Made by a program: the position numbers and the translations under genes. Under the pieces are notes generated by a model. The model saw nothing but the letters and a program-made list of their open reading frames with translations, searched no databases and was not told where the DNA came from. From Paucidesulfovibrio longus DSM 6739 (GTDB taxonomy: Bacteria; Desulfobacterota; Desulfovibrionia; Desulfovibrionales; Desulfovibrionaceae), in assembly GCF_000420485.1 (NCBI RefSeq), contig NZ_ATVA01000016.1, positions 2,501-66,500 of the forward strand: DNA of 64,000 nucleotides. Direction: 5' to 3'. This document shows positions 51,332-53,377 of the stretch, one piece after another. Within the stretch, counting starts at the first letter, position 1, and the number at the start of each line of letters is the position of its first letter.

Positions 51332-51763
51332 CTAGAGGCTGTAGAGCTTTTCGCCCGGGATGATGGTCAGGTTGTGCTTCTTGAGCAGTTCGATGGCCTG
51401 GTCCGTGCGGTCGAACCGGAAGATGATCACCGCGTGGTTCGAGCTTTGGTGCACGAAGGCGTACATGTATTCCACGTTGATGTTCTCGGCCTGGAGAATG
51501 CTCAGGATGTTGTGCAGGCCGCCGGGCTGGTCGTCCACTTCGACGGCCACCACGGTGGTGCGGCCAACGGTGAAGCCCTGGTTTTTCAGTTCGTTGCGAG
51601 CTTTTTCAAAGTCCGAGACGATCAGGCGCAGGATGCCGAAGTCCGAAGTATCCGCCAGGGACAGGGCGCGGATGTTCACGCCGGAGTCGCTGAGGATCTT
51701 GGTCACTTCCGCCAGGCGGCCGGCTCTGTTTTCAAGAAAGATGGACAGCTGATCAACCTTCAT
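51332..51763 (-). CDS. Tandem ACT-domain protein
   Basis: A 143-residue protein made of two ACT domains (about 1-70 and 71-143): [22 protein letters not shown], then [21 protein letters not shown] domains bind amino acids, so it is probably a sensor. Small double-ACT proteins often sit beside phenylacetate-CoA ligase and indolepyruvate oxidoreductase genes. It lies 38 bases after paaK and has GAGGAG before its start. Its likely ligand is an aromatic amino acid, which fits the Phe-rich leader upstream of the operon. Confidence 0.93.
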
Positions 51764-53109: not shown

Positions 53110-53142
53110 CTCCGGTCCTCCTTTTGGGGCTGAAATGCGGAA

Positions 53143-53173
53143 CAAAAAAGGCCGCGGGTGCGCCCGCGGCCTT
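53143..53173 (-). terminator. Attenuator terminator ahead of paaK (minus strand)
   Basis: On the minus strand AAGGCCGCGGG (plus 53163-53173) pairs perfectly with CCCGCGGCCTT (53148-53158) around CGCA and is followed by TTTTTT (plus A-run 53144-53149). It sits between the Phe-rich ORF and paaK, and no longer gene lies upstream for it to end. Its 5' arm can alternatively pair with 53200-53208, the end of the leader ORF. Confidence 0.88.
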
Positions 53174-53195
53174 GGTTCGACGTGCTTACGCCTCC

Positions 53196-53276
53196 TTACG
53201 CCACGGGCTCTTGAGGCTCCGTAAAGAAGCCGCTGAAGAAACCGGTAAAGCGCTGGAAAAGGGCGTTATCAAGCAT
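53196..53276 (-). CDS. Phe-rich leader peptide (attenuation), 26 residues
   Basis: A 26-codon ORF starts with ATG at 53276, with GGAG nine to six bases ahead on the minus strand. It begins [10 protein letters not shown] and has six Phe at positions 7, 10, 13, 14, 17 and 18. The last codons (about 22-26) form the segment 53200-53208, complementary over nine bases (one G-U) to the 5' arm of the downstream terminator (53162-53170). This is the layout of pheA- or pheST-type leaders. A ribosome stalled at the last Phe codons would leave 53200-53208 free and allow antitermination. It could instead be a small functional peptide, but the geometry favours attenuation. Confidence 0.78.
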
Positions 53277-53377
53277 GGAATCTCCATGCCTGAAACACGG
53301 TTCTCCGTCAAGGTCGGGGGGACTTTTTCGCCGCTGCGGGCGTTCTCTTTTCGGGCTGCCGCGTGTATGGAAAAGAC

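Follow-up and report, generated by a model that had tools for sequence, protein, structure and literature searches.

In enterobacteria, expression of pheA and pheST rises as charged tRNA-Phe falls. In alphaproteobacteria, the mRNA for the trpL leader peptide begins directly with the AUG from which it is translated. The pheA and pheST leaders (Rfam Phe_leader, RF01859) combine a Phe-rich peptide, a terminator and a competing antiterminator, and these three features are shared by the element described here, which precedes a paaK-like gene. With the trp and his attenuators it shares the 2:3 and 3:4 pairings of the four-segment model and, clearly only in relatives, the 1:2 pairing, as well as the control codons and a stop codon that lies over or beside segment 2 (PMC1183508). 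It differs from the pheA and pheST leaders in its target, an arylacetate-CoA ligase and an ACT-domain protein, and in its transcript, which probably begins at its own AUG. It differs from the trp and his attenuators in its control amino acid and in a 1:2 helix that is weak in the window, and from leaderless trpL in its predicted response to Phe rather than Trp, in its phylum and in its target. RF01859 had no match in the window, the whole 64-kb stretch of DNA that was analyzed, and a permissive threshold gave only sub-threshold Rfam matches. The best-scoring relative, L285, reached 33.6 bits against RF01859 (gathering threshold 55). There was also no Rfam match to a T-box riboswitch in the window.

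The window is part of a 3.70-Mb genome that is most closely related to Desulfovibrio-like sulfate reducers. Because the upstream neighbor is a divergent DUF547 gene, paaK and the ACT gene form their own operon. The closest solved structures of the ligase are PaaK 2y27, 2y4o and 4r1l, and that of the ACT protein is 2f06. Like the PaaK of aerobic phenylacetate degradation (2y27, TIGR02155), the ligase belongs to this family over a nearly full-length alignment. Unlike it, the ligase scores under the cut-off of the PaaK equivalog model TIGR02155 (607.3 versus 646.3 bits). The features of the locus are collected in Table 1.

Table 1. Coordinates of the putative attenuator, its promoter and the operon in the window.
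Feature	Position	Strand	Basis or remark
-35 box TTGACG of leader promoter	53306..53311	-	spacing shared with relatives; 35 nt before ATG here
Presumed -10 box CATGGA, 17-nt spacer	53283..53288	-	inferred from conserved spacing
Leader peptide ORF, 26 codons, six Phe	53196..53276	-	ORF reading; Phe-rich leader likewise placed in relatives
Stall region, Phe codons 13, 14, 17 and 18	53223..53240	-	
Segment 2, antiterminator 5' arm, within end of leader ORF	53200..53208	-	
Segment 3, terminator 5' arm and antiterminator 3' arm	53162..53170	-	
Intrinsic terminator hairpin, 11 bp, then T-run to 53144	53148..53173	-	
Shine-Dalgarno AGGAGG of paaK	53117..53122	-	sequence reading
paaK-like phenylacetate/arylacetate-CoA ligase, 435 aa	51802..53109	-	Pfam AMP-binding, AMP-binding_C_2
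ACT-domain-pair protein (ACT_8), 143 aa, second gene of operon	51332..51763	-	adjoins paaK in relatives

An earlier note on this DNA had described a minus-strand ORF with six Phe codons, a perfect terminator with a U-run and a nine-base pairing between the ORF end and the terminator. All three were recovered, and the coordinates given there are correct. The Phe codons are numbers 7, 10, 13, 14, 17 and 18. The 11 perfect pairs of the terminator enclose a 4-nt loop and are followed by T6. Segment 2 starts 17 nt past the last Phe codon, and its CGTGG core 20 nt past it. Segment 2 (GCCCGTGGC) pairs with segment 3 (GCCGCGGGC) over nine bases, one pair being G.U; when the upstream DNA was shuffled, 2/200 sequences paired equally well. 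In folding, the leader RNA outdoes 200/200 shuffles (z -4.2). Its 1:2 helix consists of only 5 bp and a small hairpin.

Folding was computed with an assumed ribosome footprint of 13 nt. With the RNA free from 13 nt past Phe codon 18, the chain up to segment 3 formed the antiterminator (-25.9 kcal/mol). With the RNA free only from 13 nt past the stop codon, the antiterminator was lost and only the terminator could form. The two structures are mutually exclusive, and the proposal of the earlier note that a stalled ribosome exposes segment 2 while one at the stop codon covers it holds in these computed folds. At full equilibrium the terminator was the more stable structure, the stalled case included, so that switching relies, as it does in classical attenuators, on the order of events during transcription. 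The region therefore has a short ORF rich in one amino acid, a terminator between this ORF and the structural gene and, by computation, an antiterminator that excludes the terminator. It is almost certainly a ribosome-mediated transcription attenuator tuned to Phe. Transcription would start at or beside the AUG of the leader. When charged tRNA-Phe is scarce the leading ribosome would stall on the Phe codons, leaving segment 2 free to pair with segment 3. The terminator could then not form, and RNA polymerase would enter paaK-ACT. The layout of the leader suggests this response to charged tRNA-Phe, while its anatomy, conservation, mutually exclusive folds and regulon membership are established by sequence and computation.

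To examine conservation, upstream DNA of orthologous paaK genes was taken from named genome contigs and from whole genomes across the family and the order. The same arrangement precedes paaK in about 50 genomes, which span eight genera and four of the order's families, in sequence that is mostly unalignable. Two genomes of the same genus have the leaders MQESTSPLCFTGFFFGFFFRRPIQPVA and MQNTISPLCFTRLFFGFFFKRPIQPVA plus a terminator. Other leaders were found in genus g34 (e.g. MLNHDLFSFFFFFFFRTEI), in genus g37 (MIKLFFFRFFFFMDLT, MQQFLFARFFWFTGSL, MKNFLVFRSFFFFMCPQ), in Desulfomicrobium-like genomes (MQSIVDSPRFPIFTGPFREGATV and its relatives), and in three further genera of three families (MNQTFTTFSLFYFYFFTFAHKGESVVSA, MQLLNYATDKFNFPFFAFFNFNKYYMSVA, MTAFPSTISFFATYWYFWYGFRSESVVV). 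Between genera the peptides cannot be aligned; Phe, position, terminator and helices are kept. Phe makes up 271/920 pooled codons of 49 leaders (29%), with Tyr at 22 (2%) and Trp at 9 (1%), and runs of up to nine Phe codons occur. The share of variable sites at third codon positions is 15/22 in Phe columns versus 31/93 elsewhere, a comparison that is supportive only, the columns having been chosen for conserved Phe. The Phe codons and the alternate pairing, on whose conservation the earlier note had staked its idea, are thus kept in the orthologous leaders of many species.

The geometry of the pairing is also retained. Across leaders, the last Phe codon lies a median of 24 nt from the segment-2 core, and the stop codon lies -13 to +11 nt from it. 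The 2:3 helix has 7–11 bp in most leaders of g1, g34 and g37, and most of these helices were equalled in 0–5/200 shuffles. The 1:2 helix is clear in g34, where 7–10 bp link the ORF start to segment 2, and in several g37 leaders. Leaders of the Desulfomicrobium-like genomes are weaker, with only 2–4 Phe codons and a 2:3 helix of 6–8 bp that was often matched by shuffles. With its core conserved, the element offers little covariation; leader L104 gives the clearest single instance, a change from G-C to A-T with compensation in both the 2:3 and the 3:4 helix. An automatic search for compensatory pairs that used a six-base core picked wrong helices in g37 leaders L094, L093 and L099 and none in L095, and a separate helix comparison was used there. 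Where the 2-3-4 core pattern matched in g1, g34 and g37, it did so once per genome, at paaK. Five stray matches occurred in other genera, two of them at aro and trp attenuators, and the reversed pattern gave 0 matches in 288 genomes.

A generic promoter scan did not report the TTGACG -35 box in the window. The distance from TTGAC to the leader ATG is 35–40 nt in 51/51 leaders from four families (mode 36), and only 5/51 leaders have a Shine-Dalgarno-like motif. Allowing 17 nt for the spacer, six bases for the -10 box and some 7 nt beyond it puts the predicted start of transcription at, or a few bases from, the leader AUG. This spacing suggests that the paaK leader is probably translated from leaderless mRNA.

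The genome that contains the window was searched for TTGAC, 29–32 nt, ATG and two adjacent Phe codons. The 15 matches included the paaK leader and two further attenuators, both with Phe as their only aromatic control residue. Leader MKTTQLGHNFFSFFFFFIFTLACGLEGTV (L329; G000:C11:291793-291869, plus strand) precedes a sodium:solute symporter of the SSF family, and its codon content points to this uncharacterised symporter as a candidate importer of Phe or of an aryl acid. Leader MNTRIRNAFFFSFFFFRCACGLGVSL (L330; G000:C15:19623-19700, plus strand) precedes a second 2-amino-3,7-dideoxyheptulosonate (ADH) synthase, the enzyme with which the aro pathway begins in this genome. The first ADH synthase is encoded in an aro operon with pheA. 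The leader of that operon, MNSLRDLGVFASFYFWYWFSRVCGHGRGTA (L249:2602-2694, plus strand, contig C11 of the same genome), is rich in Phe, Tyr and Trp, has a terminator and a 10-bp antiterminator, and seems to sense all three of them. The leaders thus act as a substrate label, their codon content separating operons controlled by Trp, by Phe and by all aromatic amino acids.

Order-wide, 20 further true-looking leaders were chosen by eye as a sample rather than a census, ten before ADH synthases and ten before the same kind of symporter. All 22 ADH synthase and symporter leaders have a terminator, a 2:3 helix of 8–13 bp and TTGAC 35–37 nt before the ATG. The signature proposed for a Desulfovibrionales Phe regulon, TTGAC about 36 nt ahead of the start codon of a Phe-rich ORF, a 2:3 helix and a terminator, is therefore present at these sites. 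Judged by its leader, paaK-ACT is one target of a predicted Phe-starvation regulon that otherwise consists of a biosynthetic enzyme and a transporter. In this genome iorA, which is preceded by a gene for a TPR protein, has no Phe leader, and none was seen on reading before the paaK paralogues L002 and L003. No convincing Phe leader was found at pheS in ten genomes, where two short ORFs containing aromatic codons overlap coding sequence.

In anaerobic bacteria, indolepyruvate oxidoreductase (IOR) and arylacetate-CoA ligase could serve either the synthesis or the breakdown of aromatic amino acids. In Bacteroides, the enzyme encoded beside IOR is reported to be an arylacetate-CoA ligase, and a biosynthetic role was proposed for it, since AMP-forming ligases favor formation of the CoA ester; this option is raised there from thermodynamics alone (PMC13285125). 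The present locus shares the proposed amino-acid-making direction with those Bacteroides and methanogen loci. It differs in that ior lies elsewhere in the genome, without a Phe leader, and the available text of PMC13285125 makes no mention of an attenuator at the loci it treats. Since attenuation on Phe codons raises expression at Phe shortage, a contribution of the operon to the Phe supply is to be expected. In the simplest pathway, arylacetate would pass through arylacetyl-CoA and arylpyruvate to the amino acid: the ligase would activate phenylacetate or other arylacetates to CoA esters, and indolepyruvate:ferredoxin oxidoreductase would reductively carboxylate the ester, giving phenylpyruvate for Phe synthesis. 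IOR alpha is present in 43/46 leader-positive genomes, and paaK-ACT adjoins iorAB in unrelated bacteria. Prephenate dehydratase is kept in 11/11 genomes tested, and synthesis from arylacetates would therefore be supplementary, a salvage route. The earlier note had suggested that the ligase serves Phe supply, and the two further Phe leaders, the distribution of IOR and the lack of aerobic catabolic PaaA/PaaC proteins (0/43 genomes) strengthen that idea. The note had also cast the ACT protein as a second sensor, a role that it may have. We infer that conversion of arylacetates to Phe, with the pathway running in that direction, is somewhat the better bet for the role of the ligase.

The opposite direction would leave the Phe attenuator real, setting basal level only, with PaaK-ACT working in Phe catabolism or energy conservation from phenylpyruvate through phenylacetyl-CoA to phenylacetate. 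IOR enzymes are known to oxidise arylpyruvates, and IOR is involved in the conversion of Phe to phenylacetate by Bacteroides thetaiotaomicron (cited in PMC13285125). Attenuation that raises expression at Phe shortage has the wrong sign for such a pathway, however, and AMP-forming ligases favor acyl-CoA formation according to the same text. The other Phe leaders stand ahead of a gene for biosynthesis and one for transport, and the genomes that lack PaaA/PaaC (43/43) differ in this from aerobic phenylacetate degraders, which makes a catabolic role unlikely. The sign itself could be reversed if Phe excess or arrest of the nascent peptide caused read-through, as some leader peptides of catabolic operons do, tna being the known case. 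The 1-2-3-4 layout, the long Phe runs and the intrinsic terminator are instead traits of starvation-type attenuators, and outside Phe the peptide sequences are unconserved between genera, so control of the tna type is very improbable.

It could also be argued that the terminator ends an unrelated transcript or small RNA and that the ORF arose by chance, since T-rich stretches encode Phe and the region could be alike in the nearest relatives by descent alone. Against this, neither strand of the 64-kb window holds another short ORF with six Phe codons among 12, and shuffling the upstream region 2000 times with its dinucleotides kept never produced one. The arrangement recurs at the same place, in unrelated sequence, in other families. 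Where a C interrupts a T run it mostly occupies a third codon position, and the distance from TTGAC to ATG is fixed, leaving chance scarcely credible. A Phe attenuator that belongs to a Phe-starvation regulon, with a ligase that likely serves Phe synthesis from arylacetates, is very likely the best explanation of the whole. That a multi-operon Desulfovibrionales Phe regulon is run wholly by leaderless Phe leaders (ADH synthase isozyme, symporter and paaK-ACT), with imported arylacetates becoming Phe by reductive carboxylation, is a tentative extension that we would place a little short of even.

The attenuation mechanism is of a known kind, and its paaK target and the Phe regulon appear undescribed in the open-access literature. 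No account of a Phe attenuator before paaK, or in Desulfovibrio, was found there, in line with the earlier note, which had known of no such leader; a prior description is possible. What precedes paaK-ACT is a Phe attenuator of the classical type that recurs across the order, sits on a gene where none was expected and apparently belongs to a Phe regulon. It suggests that many sulfate reducers turn on the ligase when Phe is short, to make Phe and not to degrade it. Such a Phe-specific attenuator is regulatory evidence for the biosynthetic direction, and this consequence for anaerobic aromatic amino acid metabolism is testable in culturable sulfate reducers.

The leader is not universal. Upstream of paaK it is absent in the large genus g18, in g23, g24 and g39, and in most g25 genomes; at named Desulfovibrio loci without the leader, the ACT gene usually does not adjoin paaK. 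In several g34 and g37 species the paaK leader has decayed. Four apparently decaying g34 leaders upstream of paaK (L167, L118, L102 and L105), with ATG or pairing lost, are useful material on the loss of attenuation. In genome G129 (L221) a Trp-containing leader, MLRSATPSFAALIWRGFWWPGPSRGPQGVVR, with a terminator precedes trpE. Upstream of an iron-type alcohol dehydrogenase in genome G128 (L220) lies a short ORF with a WWRY motif and a strong terminator, possibly by chance.
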